Shown: positions 17,443 through 38,440 of the stretch, in pieces
How the letters are laid out: every line of letters starts with the position of its first letter
Numbering within the stretch: the first letter of the stretch is position 1
Source of the DNA: Diphasiastrum complanatum
Lineage: Eukaryota; Streptophyta; Lycopodiopsida; Lycopodiales; Lycopodiaceae
Length of the DNA: 64,000 nt
Direction: 5' to 3'
Assembly (NCBI GenBank): GCA_029204225.1
Contig: CM055102.1
Span: forward strand, 44,524,484-44,588,483
The notes under the pieces: model-generated
Told to the model about the DNA's origin: nothing
The model's database searches: none
The model's input: the letters and a program-made list of their open reading frames with translations, nothing else
Program-made: the position numbers and the translations under genes

Positions 17443-17614
17443 GATGTGCTATTCAAGATGATTATGTCGTTATGACCTTGTTTGTTTCTCTTCCGAAGTC
17501 GTATGAGCACTTTTTGGTGATGATCTCCACACAACCCGACTTCACTCTTCAAAAGGTGATCGGTCATCTTCTTCAAGAAGAAATACGGAGAAAGACTAGG
17601 GTAAGGACAAATCG

Positions 17615-18280
17615 ATGGTTGATTGCAAACCAATTGATACTCCAATGGATCCAAGTATAGTATTGACTAAACCTACTTGTGCTGATTTTGATAGTGAAGT
17701 ACTCGACATAGCAAAGTACCCTTATCATTCACTCATAGGATCTTTGATGTATGCAATGCTATATACTAAACCAGATTTAGCATACACTGTTAGCACGTTA
17801 AGTCAATTCATGTCTAATCTTAGGTCCTCTCATTGGAAAGCATTAAAGAGAGTGATGAGATATATTCAGGGAAGTTTAGATCACATTTTATGTTATGATG
17901 GAAATGCTATCAACCCACTCGTTCTGCGAGGCTACTCCGACTCAGATTGGGGAGGAACAGTCTCTACCAAAAAATCTACCTCCGAGTTCTGTTTCTATCT
18001 GACAAGGAGACCAATTTCATGGAATTCAAAGAAGCAGAAATTAGTTGCGCTTTCTTTGATAGAGGCAAAGTACATCGTAGCATGTCAAGCTTCAAAAGAA
18101 GCTATATGGATCAGGTTATTACTTCACAACTTACATCACACTCAATTCAATGCTACCACCATTCTGTGTGACAACTTAAGCTATATTTCACTGTCACTGA
18201 ATCCCAGATTTCATGGCAAATTCAAGCACATAGAAATCCAGTATCATTTCATTCGGGAGAAAGTTTCTCAGGGAAAGTAA
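17615..18280 (+). CDS. Copia RT C-terminus and RNase H tail
   Basis: An intact 221-codon frame: MVDCKPIDTPMDPS, YHSLIGSLMYAMLYTKPDLA, HWKALKRVMRYIQGSLDH, GYSDSDWGGTVSTKKSTSEF, WNSKKQKLVALSLIEAKYI, EAIWIRLLLHNLH and HFIREKV. These are the Copia landmarks from thumb to RNase H. The active-site YVDD would lie upstream of the deletion and is gone. The RNase H acidic positions look kept at SDSDW and SLIEAKY, where families usually have DADW and S..EAEY. The last part of the usual tail (VADIFNKALP) follows in another frame at about 18308. Confidence 0.85.
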   Translation: MVDCKPIDTPMDPSIVLTKPTCADFDSEVLDIAKYPYHSLIGSLMYAMLYTKPDLAYTVSTLSQFMSNLRSSHWKALKRVMRYIQGSLDHILCYDGNAINPLVLRGYSDSDWGGTVSTKKSTSEFCFYLTRRPISWNSKKQKLVALSLIEAKYIVACQASKEAIWIRLLLHNLHHTQFNATTILCDNLSYISLSLNPRFHGKFKHIEIQYHFIREKVSQGK

Positions 18281-23391: not shown

Positions 23392-23493
23392 ATGGATAAT
23401 CTCATCGAGATGCTCTATGAAATCCAAAAGGAAGCTTTATGGCTAAGAGAAAGAGAAACACGAGCCAAGGAACGCCGAAATAGCTTGAAACAG
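23392..23493 (+). CDS. Exon 1, charged N-terminal helix
   Basis: ATG at 23392 gives [17 protein letters not shown] followed by [16 protein letters not shown], then donor GTAAAC. The 34 residues look like a coiled coil. The frame is open upstream to about 23300, so an earlier start or upstream exon is possible, but this ATG is the first in frame and joins the next exon in phase 0. Confidence 0.6.
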
Positions 23494-26400
23494 GTAAACC
23501 ATAGGCCGGGTAGTCGTGACAATAGATTCTAAGAATATTTTCTGCTACGTTGAAGATCAGTTTTTGACAAGTAATTGAAGAGGTATAACTCGGCAATTCA
23601 TTTAAATTTGTGCTATAGTAAAATTTCTGGTAGTTTTTACACGTTTTGAAGGTTAATCAGGCATTCAACTAGCCATTCATAGCAATTTGTGCTATTTTTT
23701 CGAAGGGTTGATCATAACCTTGTAGTCTTCAGTCTCTCATCTCAGAAGAAACCCTGCTAGATGAAGCTTAATCTTTGTAGGGTGCTTAATACATTTGTGG
23801 CTTGAGTCCTTCAATACTGGCACTGGAAACTTCTATTGACCTTGGTTCTTATGGCAGAAATCTATCCAGGAAGGAGTGCAGGAACCTCCGGTGGACGATT
23901 GGATAAAAGCTCTCAGAAGAAAATTCCATACTACTAACCCAAAGCCTATTGTGGTTTTGAGCCTATTTGATGGCATTGGAGGCATTTGGGCTGCTCTCAG
24001 GCTCCTGAACATTCCATTCACTGGATACAGCTCTGAAATAGTAAGTATCAACAAGCTGCTAATGAGATCAATAGAGCTTTCATTGTCTGTTTTCTGTGTT
24101 CATACCTAGCCCGTGCCTTATTTTCATATAGCATCAACCTAGACAATATTATACAGCTACAAAATGTCAGTATCACCTATAGTACAAGTCGGAGGTTGAA
24201 TACCTCTTCGTTGTTTTAACCTCTTAGCACCTAGTACTTTAGGTAATAGAGACAAATGACTAACGTTGTGGGTGTAGAATCTAGGATCTAGGAGACAAAC
24301 TGAATAGGCATGCATTGTGAGGTGAAAAGGTGTTGAACCTCTAACTGATACTAAAAGTTAGACTGAAGGTTATAGAGTTAACAGCTCACATTCGTAGGTG
24401 CAGAATATGTGAGAAGAACTGAGCAGTGAAGATATGTGATAAGAAATGTCGTGATGTGAAGAGTTGAATCTCTGTCAGGTGCTTCGTAATAGAGATATTT
24501 TACGGACTCTTTCAAGTGCAGACAGTAGAATATTGTGTATGTTAATGCTAGATTACATGATTAACGATACTCCCCTTTAACCTAGCATCATCTTTGAAAC
24601 AAACTATGACAAGGTCAAATTTTTTAGCAGCCATGCTTCCATCAAATCTATAAAGATTGCTTGTACTGCCTCCTTTGTTGCAGCTAGTCCCCCTGCTTCG
24701 AATGTTTTGGAACCTTTTGTTGGTAAAGATGTGCTCTTGTACCCCCTGTGACCCACATATTATTAATCTCTTTGGCACGTTCATGTAAAGAAGAGGTGAT
24801 GCAAATTGTATGGCAGTACAAAGGATGGATCTATGCCAAAGGGAGGGTGAGGGGAAGAGGGAGAGGGAAAGGGAGAGGGAGAGAGAATAACTTGGTAGGC
24901 CTTCTGTGAAAAAGCTTAATACCATTGAGCGATTCAATTTTCATACAAAGTTTGACACGATTTATGTATCAAGATTTAGCGACGTTAATGAATATCTAGG
25001 GGATTTGACTAACGAAAATCATATCTAGTAGCATTTTCTACTGACAGTTTTCTGGCCCACCATGTAAGCATTACCTAGTAACCACTTAATTTTTTTGAAA
25101 TTCAAATTAGGTTCTCTAAGCTCTTGTGACATATGTGCCATGTCAAAGAGTCAGCAATCCTTTAAACATGTTTCTTTTATTGAGTTTTTTCTGTTCCCAT
25201 CTTCAAATTCATGTCAAGGCCAGCTCTTTTTGAGCCTTTTCTATCTCCTCTCTAGGTTTTATCCTCCAAGGCTGTCTACATTTAAAACCTACAGAATTTT
25301 GATCTCTTTTTTGTGTGCCGCTAATATCTTTTTTTAATGAAAGTTTGATGGCATTTATGAAGGCTCTAATTTAAAAGTTATAGAACCCATTAAGGTCTTT
25401 TGTGCCTTTGACAGAAACCCTTAACAAGGAAATGAGTGGCTTGCCTAAAGTTCTAGCTTGTTCAAAGTTCTAGTTGATGGTGTGATGTTCCACTACTTGT
25501 TTGTTTTGTTTGGCTCTCCTTTGGCTTCAGCCTACACCATTGCTGCTTCTGAGGTTCCTTTTTGTATCTCCCCTCTATAGCATTGTTTAATCTAGGATTT
25601 ATGGTCCCTTTGGTGCGGTAACACTCATCTATGACGAATGGTATGTTAACTGTGACCTTTCATAGGGTCAATCTCATGCAGTCTAATTCCTACTATTGCC
25701 TTTCACATGGGCATACCTTAGTGGGATGTTACAATTTGTCTTCTTATTGTTCTATTTTATATTTGCTCTTAGATGTAATGGCATACTTGCTTTTTCTATT
25801 TTGATTACCTTGTTTGATATAAATCTGTGCCCTTATATCACGCCTGTGCAGAATCCAGATGCAATACAAGTATTAAGAGAGAGATACCCAGATATTGAAC
25901 ACCTTGGTGATATCAGAAAGGTGACACAGGATGATGTCAAACAACAAATTGACCTTGTTGTTGGTGGCTTTCCTTGTCAGGATCTTAGTTGTATGGGTAG
26001 AAGGATTGGGTATGACTTATCTCTAAGTACTTACTAAAACATTTGCTTTGCTTTGCTATGTAACATGAATCTGTGCAATGTTCTATTTAAATCTACCAAA
26101 TTGAAGGCATTTCACTATTGCTATGTGGTTGTGACACATTATTTTGAAAATTGATTATAAAGTTTCTAACTGGCATTTTTAGTTCATATAGAATGACTAG
26201 CCCATAAAGTCTTTTTTTAGCTAAGAATGTTAGACAAATAATGTTAGCAAAATTTCTTACAGACCACATACTAATGCATTTGGAAAATTAGATCAATACG
26301 TTAGTATTACTTTTGAGGTTGCAAAGATCATTGTCAATTTTGGATATGGGTACCGCTAATCAAGGACATGTTGTCACCATGAGAGTGATTTGGTGAAATA

Positions 26401-29400
26401 CCATCTATCTCCGGGCTAACAATGTGAAGTAACTTCACCAGCAAGAACTCATAGGAAAGAGAGACTTAATCCAGTCCTATTTTGAAAGGTCCATATAATT
26501 TTATAGAGATTTAAGGGAAAGCCTTACTTATTGAAAAAGAAATAAAATGCATGGAGTATATTTTTACCAAAGGAAATACTAGGAAGACATTTGATATGAT
26601 AGTGTGTATGTTCCTTTGCAGATCTTTTTGTTTCAGACTCGCCATGAATATTTTAAGAATGTACATTAATATCATGTGCCTGTGCAGGACATTGTCACTT
26701 TTCTCTTGCCCTTCATTCTTCTGACACTTGTCCCTGCTTTCATTATTTTCCTGTTGGCACACATAATGCCTTTACAGAAATACAAACAATTTACAGGCTA
26801 TCTTATGAAGCTCAATTTTTTTTTTTTGCACTTTTCAGGCTTCATGGACAACAAAGTCGACTCTTTTTTGAAGTTCTCCGGGTGCTTCAAACCTTCAAAC
26901 CCAAATGGTAAGTAAAATTGATTCAAAACTGAATCCTATTTTAAGTATCGTGTCACTATCTATCCTTTACATTCAAGATCTAGATTTTATCGAACCCATT
27001 GCTGGAAATGTGCATCTTATCTCCTGGCTGCTTTAGTTGGGTTGACTAAATCTTTCTCATCTATGGTCATATTAAGACTTAGGGATTGTTTTCTTCTAGG
27101 TTTCTTGTTGAAAACGTGGCCTCCATGTCATGGATAGATCGTGATGAGATTTCCAAGTATCTGAAATGCTATCCGATAGAAATTGATTCACAAGAGCTAA
27201 CACCAAGTAAAAGAAAGCGATTATATTGGACGAATGTCCCTCATCCAAAAAGTCTTCCCATGATTAAAGAGCACCACTTGACATCCCTACAAAGTGTGTT
27301 GGAGAGTGGTACGGCCTTGGAAACAAAGCTTGGTGTAAGTTTATTTACAATTCAACAATCTTTAGTGGATTTATACAACTTGATGTTTAAATGCACCAAT
27401 TCTAAGTACATATTCTTGGCTATATGTAAAGCAGTACAAATTTGGTCGACTTTATTTAAAGCTTTATCTTACATATTGAGTTCATACAAAAGTTGCAAGA
27501 CTTTGGCTTCCATCATTTTTCTCTCTCACCTTAATCAGTTCTTTGCTTACACGTACATGATTCTTTTTGCCGTTTTCTTTGTTCATAAGCAAATTGGGAA
27601 GAATTGGAAGGAAAATGGAGAAGTGAGAAATAATTATCATAACAGTAAAATGATGCTATATGTAACATTATATTTTGGCTCATTGACATGTTTCCTTTTC
27701 TTATTGCAAGATTGGCTCAGGAAATAGTTCAACTTAAGCCAATTTGCATAATTGTCAATGCATAACTTGAAGTCATAGTTTTGTTAAAGCACTTAATGCG
27801 CTTGTGTTTCAAGTGTAATATGTGTTTCTTATTAGTCATTATCGTGGCTCTTTGTTTGGAGACGTTTTGTGTTGCCTATGCTAATGATCTACAAAATGGG
27901 ATGAATGGCCTCTTGAAAGCATTGAGCAGTGATCTTGGTGGCTTGTTTGATAGCGTCATGCATGGCCTTTAGGATTCATGGAAACTCTAGACAAGAGTTA
28001 GAGGTGGCCATGCCATTCGAGAAATTGAGAACTTGCTTGGTTTCTCAGTTGGATAGACTAGCATCTATCTTCTCACTAATGACATCTATTAGGCTTGTGT
28101 CCTCCGTTTGGTTAAGTTTTATGGATATTTTGTCATTTTTTGATATGCCCTTATAGTCCCAAGTTTTAGGTAAATACAATGAAGCTTTTAAGTTATGAAT
28201 TCTTTGAAAGCACATGGATCTCTATAGGAAGTGTATTCAATGATAGTTTCTATAAAGTGTAAAGGAAAGTAGCATTTTATTCATTTTACTGCAAGTCTTC
28301 ATCATGTATGAGCTTGCCCTTTGTTGTCAAAGAAGTATTAGAGACTCAATGAGATCTCTAGGAATCATATGAAATCATATTAGACATACCTTTATGCATG
28401 TGATGTGTGTTGTTGATGCAAGGAAACTAAGGATGACACAATCAAATATCAATGTATTTAACGTATTTAAGAAAAGTAAGGCTTCATCTAAGATTGATAC
28501 CAATAGACATAGAACATTGAAAGATGATCAAGATTACAAAATCCATGACGTATTACAATTCTGACCGATAGATCAATAGATTTATGCCAACTCTAGATGC
28601 ACAACTTGCTTAGATACAAAGACAAGAGATCTACTTTAGGATTAGAAACAAATCATACTTATACTTGTTGAGGCTTGCGTTATGTCACCAAGATGCAATA
28701 AATGTGGTTTAATATTAAACCATCATCTTCCCAATACACTTTGGAAGATGTGTCCATCCATTTCGTATTGGCCCTAGATTAGAAGTTTGCAACTAAGTAG
28801 ATTGCATGAATGTCAAGTGGTGGGTAGCTCTAGACACCTTATCTAGATGTGGAGGACCCAAATTTTTGGGTTTCAGAAAGTGGCCTCCAAATTTGGTGCT
28901 TGACCTAAAGTTGGATTTTGTGCATTCTTTCATAGCTTCTTATATAAGCTTGCATTCCCCTTTAAAGAACGTTCAAATGTAGGCACTTGACTTAGGCTTT
29001 GAGGTCTATCACAAACTTGGCAGTTGGATATTCTTTCACATTCTCCCTCAAATACAACTTCTTTCCCCCTTGATGAGCGATCTCTTTTTAACACCAAGAA
29101 GGTTTCTATGTTTCTCAAATAGTTTTTGGCCTAAGAACTTAACAAAAGTTTTCCAATTGATACAAAGTTTAGTGTCCATATAGGATGATTCACTACTCTT
29201 GAATTGATTTTACAACTTGATATAGGATTATAAAGTGTAAATTTTTCAAGGATAGACAATGCAAACTTTTCTTCTCTTAAGAAAATAGTATTATGTTTTC
29301 TCCGTGCTTATATCCCTAACATGCAATGAAGACTTTCAAGATCCTTCATTTCAGGTCTTTGACTAATCCTTTTGTCAAAATCTAACTTCTTGTAAGTAGA

Positions 29401-32400
29401 AAATCATCAACTTAAGGCAAAAGACAGGTGATATAGTTTTCATCAAACTTGTAGTAGAAAGAGTGACCATATGCACTCAACATGAGACCAAAAGGATTAG
29501 ACTCCCTCTGAACTCTCAAGCAAAGAACGCGGCTGAAAGCCATACATCAGCATAAAAGGACTGACTTTGGTGGCAGAATGCTTCGCACTATTGTGCACGA
29601 ACTCAACCATTGGGAGATACTTTTCCCAATCAGACTGTCGGTGAGAAAAATATGCTCTAAGCATATCTTCCAACGTCTGGTTGATACGTTCTGTCTGCCC
29701 ATCAGATTCGGGGTGATCAAAAGAACTAAGACTAAGGGTTGTTTCATGTTTATCAAAAATTGACTGCCAAAACTTGACAGTGAATTTGGAGTCACGGTCA
29801 CTAACAATATCATTCGGCAAGCCATACAATTTGAACAACTTTTCAACAAAAAGTTGGGCTAGTTCAGATGCCTTGACAGTTAATGTAGTTGGTATAAATT
29901 GCGCCATTTTGGTTAGCCTGTCAACCACCACCCAAATGGCAGCGTGACCACTCCTGGTTTTAGGGAGTCCAGTCACAAAATCCATTGAAATGCTTTCCCA
30001 TTTCTTGTTGGGAAGGGGATGTAAAAGACATGCGACTTTGAGTTTTTCTGCTTTATTTTGCTGGCATTGTTCACAACCTTGAACGTATGCCTCGATATGA
30101 CCTTTCATCTTTGGCCAGAAAGTCAAGTGTCCTCTGTATGCCTGGGTGACCATCACAAGGGTTGTCATGACACTGCTGCAAGATTTGGGCCCGGAAGTCC
30201 TCTTTATCTGACACACAAACCTTTCCCTTATGGAAAAGCAGGCCATTCCTTATGGAATAGTCTTCAAGTATCTTGTCATTTTGGGATTGCTTGGGATCTT
30301 GCCTCCCAAGATCATCACTAGATCTAGAATTTCCCGTCAGGACATCTAGCCAGATGCGACCAAAAAACCAATCGGTTCGACAAAGATCCTGAATTGAAAG
30401 ATACAAATTAGATTGGATTTCAGCAAAGCATAGCTGATTAATCTCTCCAATCCGACGACTCAAGGCATTGACAACTATGTTCGACGTACCTTTATGATAC
30501 CTAATGTCGAACATGAACTCCTGAATGAGTTCCGACCATCTAGCCTTATGGCCACGAAGGTCCTTGGCATTATAAATGTACTTAAGGGATTGGTGATTAG
30601 TCATTACCGTAAATCTGGCACCATAGAGATAATGCCTCTAGATTTTCAACGCGTGAATCACTGCAAAAAGCTCCTTCTCATAGGTAGCATACCTTGTCGG
30701 AGCAGGATCCAGCTTCTTGCTTTCAAAAGCAACTGGTCTACGGTCCTAATAAAGGGCCGCTCCTACATCAAAGTCGCTAGCATCCGTATCCACCACAAAG
30801 GGTCGGTTAGGATCGACAATGTTTAAAATTGGGGCCATAGAAACACAGTGCTTGAGAGTCTCAAAACTCTCATTCATTTCTTCAGTCCATGTTATCAATG
30901 GACTTTTTTTGTGGCTACATTTTTTCTTCACCACCTTAAGAACGTTCGTTAGGGGCAATGCTATCAAGGCATAGTCGATAATGAACTTGGGAAGGATTTT
31001 CATCACGAATTGTTCGAGGTCGTGCCCATTCACGTACCTTACGAACCTTGTCATAATCGATTTCAAGACCTTTATCAGATATGACCTGGCCCAGGTATTT
31101 GAGTTTAGTTTGGAAGAACTCACATTTCCACTCCTTAGCATACAACTTTTCTTGCCTTAGAAGATCCAAGACAATATGAAGATGCTCTTCATGCTCCTCA
31201 AGGGTCCGACTTAAATTAATATGTCGTCCAAATACACCACCACAGAAATTGTCCCAGATATGGATGAAGAATATCGTTCATCATCTGCTGGAAAGTGTCA
31301 GGCGCAGTCGTGAGTCCAAAGGGTAAAACTAAAAACTCATAATGACTGTACCTGGATCAAAATCCAGTCTTAGGAACATCCTCGTCCCTAATCCTTATCT
31401 GATGGTATCTTGACCTGAGGTCAATCTTGGAGAAATACTTAGCTCCATTCAGACGATCCATTAGATCATCCATCCTCGGTAAGGGGTATCTGTGCTTGAT
31501 GGTTCAATCATCTAACTTTTCTAACTCACCACACAAACATGTGCCACCATCCTTTTCACTAACCAAAAGGATTGGTGCTCCCCAAGGGTACTTGTTGGGC
31601 CGAATAAGGACCATCCTAAGAAGTTCTTGTGACTGCTTAGAAATTTCATCCTCTTCCTTGATGCTCACTCTGTAAGGAAAAAGAGATAAAGGTTGGCTTC
31701 CAAGAAGCAACTCTATCTGATGGTCGACACTCCTTTGGGGATGTTTATCAGGAAAAACATCGCTATACTCTTGCCTAAGTATGTTAAATAATCTACCTTC
31801 AGGTGAATTATCACTTAAGGGATTATTTATAGACACATTCAAAGGCAAATGCGATAAATCAATATTTAGACTCTGAACTGCATGGTCATCCACATAGACT
31901 TCTTTCGATTTTGCATCTATTTTTCTTGGAAGTCCAACTTGTAGATGATTTTATGTCAAATTCTTCTCTTACGAGTTCGGCTAATTTGCTGATTATGCCA
32001 CGCACCCCTTTGTCTTGGTGTTGTGTCCACTCCTCCAAATACATATGTCGGTACTTGGACGTACCGTTCAAAGAACTCTCTAAGCACAACAGCCTCGATA
32101 TCTCTGATTACCCGGCCATCGGATATCTCTGATTTAGCCGAAGCATCTTTCAAAAAGCAAAGATAAACTTTATTACCAGAGTCTTTTAAATATTCGACAA
32201 CTTCTAAAGCAGAAACCATAGGATCAAAAGGCCTATTTACATCGCCTTTTAGTTCAACCAATGAGCCATTATGCAAAAAGGAAATACTATGAGTTACATA
32301 GTCCTTTCTTAAAGACTAATTTTTTGAGTAAAACCACTCCTTTCCTAAGATTATGTCTACGCTATCCAAATTCATAATATGAAAATCCAGCGGATAGACA

Positions 32401-35400
32401 TAATCTTGAATTTTGAGCGGCAACTGTGGAACAAGTTGGTCCCAAGCTTGCTGATCTTCCCCCGACGCCATTTTCACCCCATACAAGTGATTACTTGGCG
32501 AGGTGGCCGCCTTGAGTTTCTGCACTAGTTTAGCATTTGTAAAGTTATGTGTGGAACCATCATGAAAAAGAACAGTCACAACTTGGTATCCAATGATCCC
32601 ATTCATACAAATGAGATTGTGGGGGCCAAAAACAGCTGTATTAAAGCAACAATTCTCACAACTACAAGCTATGTACTTTCTTCATGCGTCTCCCCCCCTA
32701 TTTCTTCAAACAAAGCTTAGTTTTTTTGTTTAAACTAGCTTTAGATTTATTTAAACTTGAGTTTACAAGTTTTAGAAAACCTTGTAAACATAAACTTTTA
32801 AGTTTGCAAAGTTTAGAATTTAAATTTTCAGACTTTAGAAACTTAGAAAACTTAAAAACGCATGTTTTACAACATAACTATACAAAGTTAAAGTTATGAA
32901 ACTTTTATAAACATAGTTTCAAAACTCTACAAGAAGTAAGTACGTTTTAAAATGAAAGTACTTTTCAGACAAAGTACAAGTCTCCTCCCAGCATGTGCAA
33001 CTCACACTGTGCAGCAGTGGCCCACCACGGGATCCGCACGCCAAGCTAGCACCTCAGGTAGCGCTCAGGCGCGCGTGTGCGGGGGTTTTCATTCCAAAAA
33101 AAAATGAGCAGTGCTCAAAACTACAATTATTTTTTTTATTTGGGCACCCAAAAGGCCAAGAAACAGCCGTTATGGACTGTACTTTTCAACAGTCAGAAAA
33201 TACAGATTTTCTAGCGGTTCTCCGTGCTCGATCTGTCAAGCAGGATTTAAAAACACGGTTTTAAAAATTTCTGCAACCTAGACGGCTACCAAAAACTAGA
33301 GAACCGTAAAAATCTCAAATCTTCATTAATGTGTCTCCGTTCAACTGTTTCTTTCAATGATGAACTTATGTTAGAACATTATGTCCACTATATGATAATT
33401 CCTTATATTCAAAGGATGTACTAAAATTTGGATTCAAAGCTTGTTTTTTTAATGTGCTCTAATTTCAAGATTATTATCTTGTGCTGTTAGTGTATCTTAT
33501 CCAACAACTTCTGTCCTGGTAGCAACGTCCAACTCCAACGGATCCTTGACAATGAAACAAACTCTTTACGTTACATTTCTGTCGCTGAGCTGGAAAAAGT
33601 AATGGGGTACCCATCTGGCTATACAGATGTTCATTTCAAAAATCCAGTAGAATCTCGGTAAGTGGTGCCTCATATCTTAGGTCTCTATGAGTTTTTTTGT
33701 TTTTAGACCGAGGACTTCAAAGTGCAGAAGAAGACTAAGATGTAAAAAAGTGTACTTTTGACCTTTTGATCACAAAATGTCATGTAACCAGGTCTCAGAT
33801 GATGTCATCTTTTCATCTAGAATTTGATTGACATCCTTCATGAGAATGGACTAGAAATGATGATACTATCTGCACAGTACTTTTGACAGAAAACATCGGA
33901 AGACTAGGCTATGCCAGCAATCAAAAAAACTCCTGCCAGACACATCACTCAGTATTCGCTGGGGTTTGTTGGGTAACAGCTTCTCGGTAACTATGTCAGC
34001 TGTTAACTTGAATACTAGAAATATCATTTGTCTCAACCAAACAGAATGTGCCAGCATTTTAATTTACTTGTATTCTTATAAATTAATGTGTCCTATTCAT
34101 GTACTGAAAATTTCTCAGGTCGCAGTCATTGCATATCTTTTAAGCCCTTTATTGGACCATTCAGTACAGCAATCTGGGCTTGAACCTTTTCCATTTTCTC
34201 AGAAGTTGCGTGAAGATGAGTGCGCTGTGATGGAGCCGGGTGAGGTACTGAACTTTTGAGCAAGTAACACTTCCATTAAACCTGAAAGTTTTTAACTTTA
34301 AACTTTTCAGGAAAGAGCAGTTTTAGCTTGTTCCTGTCGATTTGGTGGCCTGCAAGATCAAACTTGATATCAAGGCCCGTGTTTTCAAAACATTGGGAGT
34401 GAATATCATTTCTGACTCCTGCAAATACTTATAAAACTTATTGCCATGTGACCCTGCAAAACTTGTAGTCTAGAAGTCTTCTAGTTCTGGAATCTGTATG
34501 AATCACAATCTGTTAATTCCATTTGTTTTCTTGAGTGATTGTCAAAATGTAAATCAGTACATCAAATACATGAAAGGTCAGGCTTCGTCAAGACTTATAT
34601 TCCAGCTTTGCTGGTGTTGGGAAAATGAAGATATCGAGTCTTATTAGTCAAATGTATGGTAAGTTTTGTCATAACATTTTCCCTTGTACAATTGTTTTTA
34701 TTAATGCGTTTGATACTGTGATTTATTGAAGCAACCATATCCAAAGTCAAGTGCTTGAGCAACTCTATTAGTGGTCAATATCTACACATGTCGGTTCTGC
34801 CCTTGCAACAACCTTCTGATCTGTCATTGAAAGTAAGGCTGACAAAAGTACTAGTAATGGAGCTGAAAGTTAATTTTCAAAGTATTGATGATATTTATAT
34901 GCTATTCGTGTTGGGATACTATGATTCAAATTTCAGCATTATTAGTTTGTCCTTTCTATATAATGCACAAGAGAGTGAGCAAGAATGGCATTGCAATGAA
35001 ACACGACATAGGCTTTAGGTCTTGTTTTAATAAATCAAATTAACATATCGAGTTAACCATGACCTGAGAAAATTGGGATCAAATTTTGTCTTTGGAACTT
35101 AAATATGAGTTGTAGGCTGAATCTTGTAAATGGTGTTGCAAATTCATTCAAAATTGACGGTCAAGGAAACTTGACACTCATTATTCAAGGAAAACTGTTT
35201 TTCTTTTAATAGATTTGGGCTTTGTTCAATGCACATGAGCGACCCAATTGGTATGCCTTGATCATAAGTACATCTGGCGGAAGGTTCTCACCATCACAAA
35301 CAAATGGAGACAGAGGGCCAGTTGATATTCATGTGTGAGAAAATTCTTTCTTTTGTTTCGAGTCAATGCCATTTGTGTGAAAGGTGAGGCTGTGATCTCG

Positions 35401-37002
35401 TGTTCATTATCTCATTAATGCAACAAGAGTTACTGGATCCTTATGTGTATGCAGGCGATTCTTAAAGCTGGATCCTGAGTACTTGAATGTAGAAAATGAT
35501 AAATGGAATCCAATACGGGGAACTGGAAGATACACACTAATGCCAAATATTGACGCTCAAAATTCCTGGCTTCCCTTTTCTCACAGGTAAAGTCTATTTT
35601 TCAAAATAGTATAATAAGCTGGTCTTTATAGCTTCAGTTCTTTTCACCGAATTCTGCCTTGTGGTGGAATTTTGATATACACTCTTCCATTAGCTTAGAT
35701 CTGATATATTCTTGTTTTCCTGCTTTTCCTTGTACTGATGCCAACCTCTGCTAGCTGTAAATAGCGATCTTTAAGATTATGTTTGTGATTGAAGGTTTCT
35801 TAGACAGGAAATTAGTAACTTGTATCTACCACTTGGATATCCTAAAGCAAGTTTTTGTTCTTATGATGCAGGGTCATCAGCACCATCAAACTCGAAGATG
35901 ACTATTTTATTTATCCTGGAAAAGGTCAAGTATGGGCAGTCTATGATCCTAAAACTCATCGCCCTGCTCCCTTTTTTGTGGTGGGTGAAAACTGGCTTTT
36001 TTTTCATATGAGCAAGATAATCTCGTACCTCGTAGATCTGTCAAGTCAGTACTTTGCATGTTCTCTGGCACGAAGTTGTAGATTTAGCTCAAGGAAATAG
36101 AATTAATTCTCTGTAGGAGGAAGGCACTTGGGTTATGATATCAATGCAAGTCTCCTCTACTGTTTGAAACCTTCTGATTGGTCGACATTTGTTTTTATTG
36201 CATTAGTGGACATTTGTCAATCTGGCATTTTAATGTTTTGATACTTCATGTACATAAGACGTATGTTATGTTATGACTTAAACATTGTCTATCACTTGCC
36301 ATTATAGAGCTTTCAACCTTGTCCTGTATATGCCCCTGGCATTTCTGGCCAATTTCAACTGGAGTAGAAGTGTGGCCATGTACTAATGTGAACTTTTTTT
36401 TTATCCAAGCTGTTTCTACAACGAAATTATGGACTGCTACATAAGAATCACCTTTGAGATTCGAGAATTTGTTTTCTAATGTTTTGAAAATGAGCTTTTC
36501 ATAGCGGTTCTTGCCAGATGCAATTTCTTACATATTTCAGGGCTTGTATATGACGCCATAAATTTGATTTTCTTGGAATAGTATGTGTTGGAGATGGAGC
36601 TTCATTGTGGCCCAGGGATTCCAACAAAGCCAGGACAGGAGGGTTACAAGGCTTTTTGCTACTTGATGCAGGAAACTGTCTCTCCTGAAATATTCAGGTA
36701 TTTTTCTAACACAAAATTATCACGGAATAGTCAGAAGGTGGCAAAACCATACAAAGTTTTTATAAATAATCACTAAGTCACATATTTTCATTGATTCCAC
36801 CTGCAGGTGCACTACCAAAAAGTTGGAATACACAGACTTATCGCAGTTCTGCTTTATGGTACCTTTCTTTTACAAAAATGAGTCAGGGCTTTTCAAGCTG
36901 GACTACAATGCCAAAGGAAGAAAGTCTCTGGTTGACTATCATGAGAGACAATTTAAGAAACACACACAAGATCTCTTAGATAACATGGATGATTCAGTCT
37001 AG
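23392..37002 (+). CDS. DNMT3-type DNA methyltransferase with C-terminal DUF3444 domain (predicted fusion gene, 13 recognised exons)
   Basis: Nuclear enzyme expected to transfer methyl from S-adenosylmethionine to carbon 5 of cytosine. Thirteen exons with GT/AG borders give about 583 residues. Order: a charged helix (1-34), motif I FDGIGG (71-76), motif IV with catalytic Cys in PCQDLS (Cys about 137), motif VI ENV (175-177), DNMT3-like [18 protein letters not shown], motif [12 protein letters not shown] (288-296) and LLGNSFSV (310-317), then DUF3444 (about 359 to near the end). Canonical motif order excludes [11 protein letters not shown]...DLVVGG resembles DNMT3 GDVR.VT...DLVIGG. PCQ replaces the animal PCN. 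No PWWP, ADD, UBA, BAH or chromodomain was seen. The segment near motif VIII is unassigned and lies in a TE-filled intron. Exon phases agree except between the exons ending near 35984 and starting at 36582. Alternative: two genes, the first ending at the stop 34257-34259. Confidence 0.72.
23858..24040 (+). CDS. Exon 2, motif I (SAM binding)
   Basis: Acceptor ATGGCAG, donor GTAAGT, 183 bases, phase 0 at both ends. Reads [13 protein letters not shown], then [20 protein letters not shown] and GYSSEI. FDGIGG is the glycine loop that binds S-adenosylmethionine; the acidic residue in SSEI is where motif II contacts the ribose. This is the most diagnostic exon of the gene. Confidence 0.9.
25852..26009 (+). 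CDS. Exon 3, motif IV (catalytic cysteine)
   Basis: Acceptor CCTGTGCAG, donor GTATGA, phase 0 in and phase 2 out. Reads [47 protein letters not shown]. The Cys of PCQ is the nucleophile that attacks C6 of cytosine. The 1.8-kb intron before it holds only a purine-rich tract (24840-24890) and unremarkable AT-rich sequence. Confidence 0.9.
26839..26907 (+). CDS. Exon 4, LFFE helix
   Basis: A short 69-base exon after a T-rich tract (TTTTTTTGCACTTTTCAG) with donor GTAAGT. Reads [20 protein letters not shown] and KPKW across its borders, matching the LF.E..R.....P segment between motifs IV and VI. Split codons restore the frame on both sides. Confidence 0.88.
27100..27334 (+). CDS. Exon 5, motif VI and DNMT3 signature
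   Basis: Acceptor TTCTTCTAG, donor GTAAGT, phase 0 out. Reads [40 protein letters not shown] and TNVPHP. ENV holds the glutamate that protonates the cytosine ring. I-D-x2-E-[LV]-[ST]-x4-R-x-R-x-[YF]-W-x-N-x-P is the pattern best matched by DNMT3 ([20 protein letters not shown] in animals) and by some phage-type C5 enzymes. Confidence 0.9.
29150..29500 (-). mobile_element. Copia RT fragment beside the intronic Gypsy
   Basis: Minus-strand reading gives [20 protein letters not shown], then VDDFLL (the YVDD active site with its Tyr codon replaced by a stop), [14 protein letters not shown] and [15 protein letters not shown]. The order matches Copia RT around the active site (VDD.-L.........-F.MKDLG...-YFLG). 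It directly adjoins the Gypsy integrase at 29497 with no LTR between, so one element is inserted in, or recombined with, the other. Confidence 0.6.
29497..30604 (-). mobile_element. Gypsy RNase H end, zinc finger and integrase
   Basis: From 30604 downward: [46 protein letters not shown] (RNase H end; family has DALSR), the H2C2 finger [15 protein letters not shown] and CEQCQQNK, then integrase [29 protein letters not shown] and [17 protein letters not shown]. Acidic catalytic positions appear as D in ISMDFV, D in SDRD and E in QTERIN. The integrase frame is open for 249 codons, so this copy is less decayed than most others in the window. The C-terminal domain after [10 protein letters not shown] is lost at the Copia junction. 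Confidence 0.88.
30605..32620 (-). mobile_element. Gypsy protease and RT (frameshifted)
   Basis: Protease region 32316-32606 reads [20 protein letters not shown] and [11 protein letters not shown]; the catalytic D of DSGSTHNF is H here (HDGSTHNF). RT pieces are [58 protein letters not shown], the YLDD box out of frame at about 31215, [20 protein letters not shown] and [12 protein letters not shown]. Stops and frameshifts divide it. Gag and LTRs were not found in 32620-33300. It lies antisense within the methyltransferase intron. Confidence 0.85.
32990..33095. other. GC-rich patch in the large intron
   Basis: Short GC-rich stretch (CGCTCAGGCGCGCGTGTGCG at about 33062) in DNA that is otherwise strongly AT-rich. 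It may be the leader or LTR edge of the antisense Gypsy, or a captured fragment. Nothing coding was recognised. Confidence 0.4.
33491..33657 (+). CDS. Exon 6 (recognised), motif IX
   Basis: Acceptor GTGCTGTTAG, donor GTAAGT, phase 0 in and phase 2 out. Reads [20 protein letters not shown], then [43 protein letters not shown] aligns with animal DNMT3 [20 protein letters not shown], just after the short target-recognition loop. Phase 0 would let it join exon 5 directly, but a missing phase-0 exon is more likely. Confidence 0.85.
33953..33986 (+). CDS. Exon 7 (34-base microexon), motif X first half
   Basis: Acceptor ATCACTCAG, donor GTAACT. It encodes [11 protein letters not shown] after the split arginine codon. 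LLGNSFS is motif X, which packs on motif I; animal DNMT3 has LLGRSWS here. The exon splits motif X from its last helix. Confidence 0.8.
34119..34244 (+). CDS. Exon 8, end of motif X and linker to DUF3444
   Basis: Acceptor TTTCTCAG, then [37 protein letters not shown] and donor GTACTG in phase 0. [12 protein letters not shown] matches DNMT3 VPVIRHLFAPLK, the end of the catalytic fold. Animal enzymes stop within a few residues. Here about 25 more codons lead to PGE, just where DUF3444 domains start (pattern: F..G.IWA.Y). Reading through the donor would meet a stop at 34257-34259. Confidence 0.75.
34245..35212 (+). other. Intron joining the methyltransferase to DUF3444
   Basis: A 968-base AT-rich interval from GAG|GTACTG to TTTTCTTTTAATAG. 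No transposon, no promoter-like element and no J-domain coding sequence (no HPD motif) was recognised. That argues against a separate J-domain gene starting here. Confidence 0.55.
35213..35334 (+). CDS. Exon 9, start of DUF3444
   Basis: Acceptor TTTTAATAG, donor GTGAGA, phase 0 in and phase 2 out. Reads [26 protein letters not shown] and GPVDIHV. DUF3444 domains start [FI]WA[LV]Y....MPR[FY]YA.I, which this matches with a shortened loop. Confidence 0.7.
35455..35586 (+). CDS. Exon 10, DUF3444 middle
   Basis: Acceptor TATGCAG, donor GTAAAG. Reads [28 protein letters not shown] and NSWLPFSHR. In DUF3444 this is the V.WL....-cG.F..G......-FSH.V segment. The FSH motif is the clearest marker. Confidence 0.7.
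35872..35984 (+). CDS. Exon 11, DUF3444 I.P.KG.VWA.Y motif
   Basis: Acceptor TTATGATGCAG. Reads [38 protein letters not shown][KG]KG.[VT]WA[LV]Y is the hallmark in the middle of DUF3444. The 3' border is uncertain: a GT at 35985 gives phase 1, which does not fit the next exon; an earlier GTGGTG donor or a small missed exon would fix this. Confidence 0.68.
36582..36697 (+). CDS. Exon 12, DUF3444
   Basis: Acceptor TTGGAATAG, donor GTATTT, phase 2 out. Reads [14 protein letters not shown] and [14 protein letters not shown], then SPEIFR. This corresponds in position to the YE.VE.L......V..L.K..GFK..F part of DUF3444. A competing frame closes with a stop before the donor. Confidence 0.6.
36807..37002 (+). 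CDS. Exon 13, DUF3444 end and stop
   Basis: Acceptor CCACCTGCAG. Reads [30 protein letters not shown] and a charged tail with [15 protein letters not shown], stop TAG at 37000-37002. The usual DUF3444 end is .IP...L..FSH.[IV]PSF......-LDP.A.P; here FSH is FCF. A polyadenylation site was not assigned. Confidence 0.68.
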
Positions 37003-37446: not shown

Positions 37447-38440
37447 CTTAGAAGCCCGTTCCAAGCAAAATGGGTCGGAACGTTCCGTTCCGCCTGTTTC
37501 GTACGTTCCGGAACATACTGGCTCGGAACGAGTCAGTTCAAGCTAAAAAAAATGGTAAACGACCCTGCTGGCCCGCGCATTCTGCATTTCACAGATAGCG
37601 AGCAGGGAAAGTGCGCCTACATCCATTTTGGGGATGAGCTGAGATCAGAGAAGCCCCAACAGCAAAACTTCATACTTGCAACGGGTGAGCGTCTCGATAT
37701 GACGTTAACACTGCAGTCTTCAAAAGTTGCAGGGACGCTTGCTCAAACCTTTGAATGTGGCTTATAGACAGCAATACCAGTATCTCAAAAGCTGTCATTG
37801 GCTGGCAAGCGGTTCGCACTATGTTCAACAATTCCTGTCTTGAAGGCGGATCTTGCTTCACGGAGAAATTTATATGCAGCACTACCGTTCCTTTGACCTG
37901 CTCAAACATATCAGCATAATTGATTCTTGATGTCTTTTTTGCACGACATCCATTTTCCCTGGATTTCTTACCAATATCATCGCCATCCAATCTATTAAAA
38001 AATACGAGCTAGAATTGCTGTCTGAGCCACGCTATATATCTTGATTCTGTTCCTTAATCTCCAATGCTGTGTTAAAAACCATGTTATCCGAGCCAGAATT
38101 GCTGTCTGACCCACGCTATATTTGAGACGTCTCAAAACCGTGGATGACGTGACGTGGGCCTGAACGAAGCCACTACTCACAGACGCCTTTATGATGGAAG
38201 GAATTTTGCAACCAAGATAACCCGTAGAAGCATAATGCATAGAACTGCAATCAAGTATAGAACCAGAACGCAATCCTAAATGGAAGCCAAACGCTTAGTT
38301 ACCCGGTCTGTCTATCAACTCTCAGCATATGTTATTTTTTTCTTTGTTAAAAAAAGCATATTTTTTAATTTTTTTTGGGAGTCCCGTTCCGGAACGGAAC
38401 GCGTTCGAGAACGCGTTTCATTCCGGAACGGGCAACTAAG
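37447..38440. mobile_element. Non-autonomous TIR DNA transposon, about 1 kb
   Basis: Starts CTTAGAAGCCCGTTCC and ends GGAACGGGCAACTAAG, so its ends are CTTAG[AAG/TTG]CCCGTTCC in inverted orientation. TATGAAC is found just outside both ends (37440-37446 and 38443-38449), an imperfect 7-9 bp target duplication as in hAT or MULE elements. Subterminal GTTCCGGAACG palindromes occur at both ends. The interior is less AT-rich than its surroundings and holds open frames on both strands, listed separately. A 176-bp relative lies at 56857-57032. Confidence 0.75.
37670..37990 (-). CDS. Unknown open frame inside the TIR transposon
   Basis: A 106-codon minus-strand frame with SRINYADMFEQVKGTVVLHI and KQDPPSRQELLNIVRTACQP. 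It has the look of real protein (mixed composition, no low complexity) but I recognise no family. The opposite strand (37441-37767) is also open (RILHFTDSEQGKCAYIHFGD). Either could be a captured host exon; only one can be genuine coding sequence. No start context or splice evidence decides it. Confidence 0.25.
   Translation of the reverse strand: MDGDDIGKKSRENGCRAKKTSRINYADMFEQVKGTVVLHINFSVKQDPPSRQELLNIVRTACQPMTAFEILVLLSISHIQRFEQASLQLLKTAVLTSYRDAHPLQV

Follow-up and report, generated by a model that had tools for sequence, protein, structure and literature searches.

A DNMT3-type DNA methyltransferase spliced to a DUF3444 domain in the clubmoss Diphasiastrum complanatum, a member of a published plant family

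The 64,000-nucleotide stretch of DNA analyzed here (hereafter, the window) spans positions 44524484-44588483 of contig C11 in the 1.74-Gb assembly of the lycophyte Diphasiastrum complanatum (Lycopodiaceae), and contains a forward-strand gene for a DNMT3-type C5-methyltransferase followed by a DUF3444 domain. The gene extends from an ATG at 23392 to the end of its stop codon at 37002, and its 13 exons encode 603 residues without an internal stop. Exon borders were set by hand and then checked by script, and all 12 introns are of the GT-AG type. The spliced translation is identical, over its full length, to a deposited D. complanatum protein, O6H91_11G087200 (P0001), and a family profile from which both D. 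complanatum rows had been removed matched 12 of the 13 exons, in order, in the six-frame translation of the window (E 6.4e-44 to 2.9e-5), with exon 1 (34 residues) the sole exon missed. Because the joined protein equals the deposited one over 603 residues, and because the leave-out profile recovers nearly every exon, the gene model is not a product of chance. Searched at E 1 with the full family profile, the window shows no additional copy or fragment of a DNMT3 gene, and no Rfam family was found there at gathering scores.

The joined protein passes the Pfam cut-offs for both DNA_methylase (PF00145; 103.5 bits, cut-off 22) and DUF3444 (PF11926; 43.9 bits, cut-off 26.1, profile positions 20-129 of 211), and a Pfam scan of P0001 up to E 10 returned nothing besides these two, including no PWWP, ADD, or reader family. 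Methyltransferase motifs I, IV, VI, VIII, and X follow one another linearly across exons 2-8, both in exon order and in an alignment of 33 family proteins (alignment A1), in keeping with the canonical order proposed in the initial annotation. Across these 33 proteins, P0001 included, Cys137 of motif IV, the catalytic residue in this family, is nearly invariant, as is Glu175-Asn176-Val177, while Arg209 and Arg211 are invariant. The predicted phase-0 junction, at which ...MEPGE of exon 8 meets IWALFN of exon 9 and recreates the pattern G-E-I-W-A, is present as described, and W381, N385, P390, W392, and Y393, directly behind it, are invariant in the same alignment. The downstream blocks [16 protein letters not shown] and MVPFF...LDY were likewise located, in exons 10, 11, and 13. 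Motif X does precede a linker that runs to MEPGE; we count 30 residues between the end of LLSPLL and MEPGE, so the proposed linker length of 25 residues depends on where motif X is taken to end.

Among solved structures, the catalytic half is closest in sequence to animal DNMT3, a class assignment made by profile score against solved chains: the family profile scores highest against DNMT3B (172.4 bits), DNMT3C (171.8 bits), and DNMT3A (170.3 bits), with entries for these three enzymes ranging from 163.9 to 172.4 bits and shortened DNMT3B isoforms from 130 to 132 bits. Other solved chains score lower (4onj, 84.5 bits; DRM2, 79.1 bits; HhaI, 75.8 bits; DNMT1, 25.2 bits), and a DRM or DNMT1-type enzyme was ruled out by these scores. 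The clubmoss protein has the catalytic domain and motif order in common with animal DNMT3A/3B/3C, but Pfam finds neither PWWP nor ADD in it, and a DUF3444 domain follows the catalytic domain instead. The catalytic domain of DRM2 is also DNMT3-related; however, DRM enzymes carry a rearranged DNMT3 domain, according to Yaari et al. (2019, PMC6453930), whereas the order in the clubmoss protein is linear, and the best matched stretch between solved DRM chains and the clubmoss family profile covers only about residues 65-169.

Protein relatives were examined as the best 120 of 821 database matches. In a precomputed Pfam list, both domains occur in 32 of the 34 best matches (P0001-P0034), and the two exceptions, P0031 and P0033, both begin inside the methyltransferase part. 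A DUF3444 profile matched 37 of the 120 (by count, P0001-P0037), although it was built from 33 of these same proteins, such that only isoform P0002 and three Closterium proteins were found independently. The named carriers among the 37 are all streptophytes, namely mosses, liverworts, lycophytes, ferns, Klebsormidium, and Closterium. None of the remaining 83 matched the profile, and most of them are methyltransferases of 330-430 residues. Alignment A1 comprises 33 of the 37 DUF3444 proteins (P0002 and the Closterium proteins P0035-P0037 were left out), and at E up to 1, DUF3444 is found in 33 of 33 and DNA_methylase in 31 of 33, the two without the latter presumably being P0031 and P0033. A region search with residues 360-603 of P0001 yielded 19 proteins, 18 with both domains and one (P0031) with DUF3444 alone, and no J-protein was among these 19 matches. 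A protein search with a separate DUF3444 alignment (A2) returned nothing at E 0.001, probably since its candidates were limited to those near its own length. In the green alga Closterium, the DNMT3-type proteins end in a diverged DUF3444-like region, not recorded in the precomputed Pfam list, which the family profile scores at 63.4, 63.2, and 31.2 bits.

A second D. complanatum gene of the family is deposited (P0003; O6H91_13G040900, chromosome 13 by its locus tag), and its product is 56% identical to P0001. In a tree of 37 chosen rows of the 120 (31 with DUF3444, six without), P0001 and P0003 are sisters (95/89) and group with Selaginella (95/64). The 100/100 split between rows with and without DUF3444 is partly built in, as the columns include the DUF3444 region that is absent from the six rows.

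The initial annotation knew of no report of this architecture, but it is already described: Yaari et al. (2019, PMC6453930) state that Physcomitrium DNMT3a/b have a DNMT3-type domain at the N terminus and DUF3444 at the C terminus, a layout conserved in non-flowering streptophytes and not found in angiosperms, with credit for the moss layout given to Malik et al. (2012). The same paper also reports a tree with animal DNMT3, attributes de novo CG and CHH methylation to moss DNMT3b, and notes that plant DNMT3s have no chromodomain and that their CHH methylation is probably linked to H3K9me2 only in an indirect way. The clubmoss gene shares its two-domain order with Physcomitrium patens PpDNMT3a and PpDNMT3b and with Marchantia MpDNMT3a and MpDNMT3b (PMC6453930 for the architecture), and among its matches, the Physcomitrium and Marchantia polymorpha proteins P0020, P0023, P0025, and P0027 are 45-49% identical over 88-96% of the query. 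Apart from the presence of at least two deposited clubmoss genes, sisters in the tree, there is no other notable difference from the moss and liverwort enzymes. The initial annotation therefore read the gene correctly and the fusion is real, but the family and its layout were already published. A flowering plant as the source, which would have been surprising, was rejected, given the identity of the protein with one from the lycophyte D. complanatum.

The DUF3444 domain also occurs in other D. complanatum proteins. Six loci have a full-length match, and four of these were scanned as open frames only; all four proteins have a zinc ribbon and two have a DnaJ domain. These J-domain/zinc-ribbon proteins share the full-length DUF3444 with the clubmoss DNMT3 (hhalign probability 97.6% over both halves) and are without a methyltransferase, and their domain lies far nearer the Pfam model than the DNMT3-borne one (220-241 bits in the four proteins, compared with 43.9). 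In a genome-wide list of DUF3444 matches, the small contigs C2472 (L003) and C3092 (L005) have the same DUF3444 letters as L002 (C2) and L004 (C17), and probably represent duplicate assembly of the same genes.

Comparison of the two halves of the DNMT3-borne DUF3444 with each other gives an hhalign probability of 90.2% and a score of 37.2 over 49 aligned columns, whereas 150 column shuffles reached at most 18.8 and the reversed profile scored 11.4. Cross comparisons, made without shuffles, gave 32.7 (half 1 with J-type half 2) and 31.8 (half 2 with J-type half 1), and like halves of the DNMT3-borne and J-type domains scored 43.1 and 43.4. For the J-type domain itself, half against half scored 22.7 with a shuffle maximum of 21.3 (100 shuffles), a narrow and weak margin, using four of eight fetched loci (of the rest, two have the same domain letters and two are short). 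Across 10 DNMT3-borne and J-type sequences, the first half shows no variation at G-x-x-W-A, P, Y, G, and F-S-H. The half comparisons suggest that DUF3444 consists of two similar units derived from an old internal duplication. As to a possible Tudor-, PWWP-, or Agenet-like barrel fold of the units, PDB profile searches found no significant solved relative of DUF3444 (best E 0.051 and 0.25), and a half-domain scan gave Agenet at E 0.059 in one of 10 sequences, which is no better than SfsA (0.042) in the same scan and is at chance level. A link between DUF3444 and the Arabidopsis SUVH-SDJ methylation-reader complex was also considered and dropped, a term search of PMC7827474 having returned no 'DUF'.

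Table 1. Exons of the D. complanatum DNMT3 gene and its longest intron, in window coordinates.
Feature	Position	Strand	Content and evidence
Exon 1	23392..23493	+	Start codon, charged N-terminal segment; aligns with N termini of relatives
Exon 2	23858..24040	+	Methyltransferase motif I (LSLFDGIGG); leave-out profile match
Exon 3	25852..26009	+	Motif IV (GGFPCQDLS, Cys137); leave-out profile match
Exon 4	26839..26907	+	Leave-out profile match
Exon 5	27100..27334	+	Motifs VI (ENV, residues 175-177) and VIII (Arg209, Arg211); missing in isoform P0002
Exon 6	33491..33657	+	Methyltransferase part, ends ahead of motif X; start in isoform P0002, 33523
Exon 7	33890..33986	+	Motif X start (LLGNSFS); start in isoform P0002, 33878
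Exon 8	34119..34244	+	Motif X end and linker to MEPGE; leave-out profile match
Exon 9	35213..35334	+	DUF3444 unit 1 start (IWALFN...WYALI); Pfam and leave-out profile
Exon 10	35455..35586	+	DUF3444 unit 1 end (FSHR); leave-out profile match
Exon 11	35872..35980	+	DUF3444 unit 2 start ([12 protein letters not shown]); half-against-half comparison and leave-out profile
Exon 12	36582..36697	+	DUF3444 unit 2; leave-out profile match
Exon 13	36807..37002	+	DUF3444 end (MVPFF...LFKLDY), C terminus, stop; leave-out profile and hhalign
Intron 5 (6156 bases)	27335..33490	+	Broken Ty3/gypsy-type pol pieces on the opposite strand, about 29500-32681

The pol pieces in intron 5 (29500-32681, reverse strand) include RVP_2, RT_RNaseH, RT_RNaseH_2, and Integrase_H2C2 above the Pfam cut-offs, in several frames, with RVT_1 and rve below them, and five of seven scanned pieces gave a match. 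No direct repeats of 20 bases or more occur within the intron, and there is therefore no pair of long terminal repeats. Elsewhere in the window, a segment at about 37470-38440 has ends rich in GGAACG/CGTTCC in opposite orientation and by eye resembles a small transposon with terminal inverted repeats, and a forward-strand open frame at 17600-18280 resembles, on visual inspection, the terminal part of a Ty1/copia pol, with no Pfam match at E 0.01.

Taken as a whole, the locus (on chromosome 11 by its locus tag) very probably encodes an ordinary plant DNMT3, which would act as a de novo CG and CHH methyltransferase spliced to a DUF3444 module for targeting or partner binding. By analogy with moss DNMT3b, the enzyme would methylate CG and CHH sites de novo without guidance by small RNA, chiefly at transposons in heterochromatin. 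As the only other Pfam domain in the protein, DUF3444 is the obvious candidate for a targeting or partner-binding role, and, standing in place of the animal PWWP and ADD domains, it would most likely bind chromatin or a partner protein. The suggestion in the initial annotation that it may recruit the enzyme or its partners is likewise a hypothesis. The analysis establishes the gene model, the identity of both domains, the intactness of the conserved motifs, and the conservation of the domain pair, while enzyme activity, sequence context, and the part played by DUF3444 are inferred. Several observations weigh against this interpretation. A deposited isoform with the same locus tag (P0002, 518 residues) omits exon 5 and splices into exons 6 and 7 at acceptors directly ahead of 33523 and 33878, and, as it is without residues 175-177 and 209-211 (ENV and R-x-R), it is probably inactive. 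The main enzyme could instead be the product of the second gene, P0003. On the gene model itself, one result points the other way: a genome-wide Pfam search for DUF3444 listed 11 places, with the DNMT3 gene not among them and none on C13, in a search that left exons unjoined and scored the best candidates alone, the DUF3444 of this gene being spread over exons 8-13. Finally, a moss transgene test is described in which CHH methylation was lost in dnmt3b and unchanged in dnmt3a (PMC6453930), and according to PMC8566409, mosses mutated in DNMT3 are viable and develop normally, such that an individual copy may be inactive or dispensable.

The possibility that two adjacent genes were wrongly joined, one for a methyltransferase that stops at 34259 and one for a DUF3444 protein that begins near 35213, draws on the sequence that retention of intron 8 would produce (...MEPGEVLNF, with an in-frame stop at 34257-34259) and on the methyltransferase-free DUF3444 proteins elsewhere in the genome; however, the deposited P0001 and P0002 both span the join, both parts lie in one protein in mosses, liverworts, ferns, Selaginella, and Klebsormidium, and the residues behind the join are invariant, making such an error extremely improbable. 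The single protein put forward in the initial annotation accordingly stands. It is less far-fetched, but still quite unlikely, that the gene is a decaying or regulatory copy that yields little active enzyme or a non-catalytic partner, with P0003 as the working enzyme: the isoform without motifs VI and VIII, the long intron 5 with its broken gypsy-type pieces, and the longer end branch of P0001 (0.6, compared with 0.39 for P0003) would fit such a copy, whereas the full-length frame is intact, with conserved motifs and no stop or frameshift.

The role of the DUF3444 domain admits more than one reading. Like its counterpart in J-proteins, it may be a partner domain that binds a chaperone-type client or stabilizes the enzyme and has no part in chromatin targeting, a proposal that we regard as plausible if short of probable; the zinc ribbons and DnaJ domains of the scanned DUF3444 proteins speak for it and the much diverged DUF3444 of the DNMT3 gene, with its far lower Pfam score, against it, neither of them directly. 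More doubtful is the proposal that the duplicated pair of small domains is a plant counterpart of the PWWP and ADD readers that would guide DNMT3, with the J-protein module reading the same mark or binding the same partner; here, the support from sequence covers the duplication and not the reading function.

Under the preferred interpretation of an ordinary plant DNMT3, this clubmoss retains an intact plant-type enzyme, with at least two deposited genes, of a class that is reported lost in flowering plants. Its DUF3444 domain sharpens the question of what this domain contributes to DNMT3, and the putative internal duplication offers a simple handle on that question.

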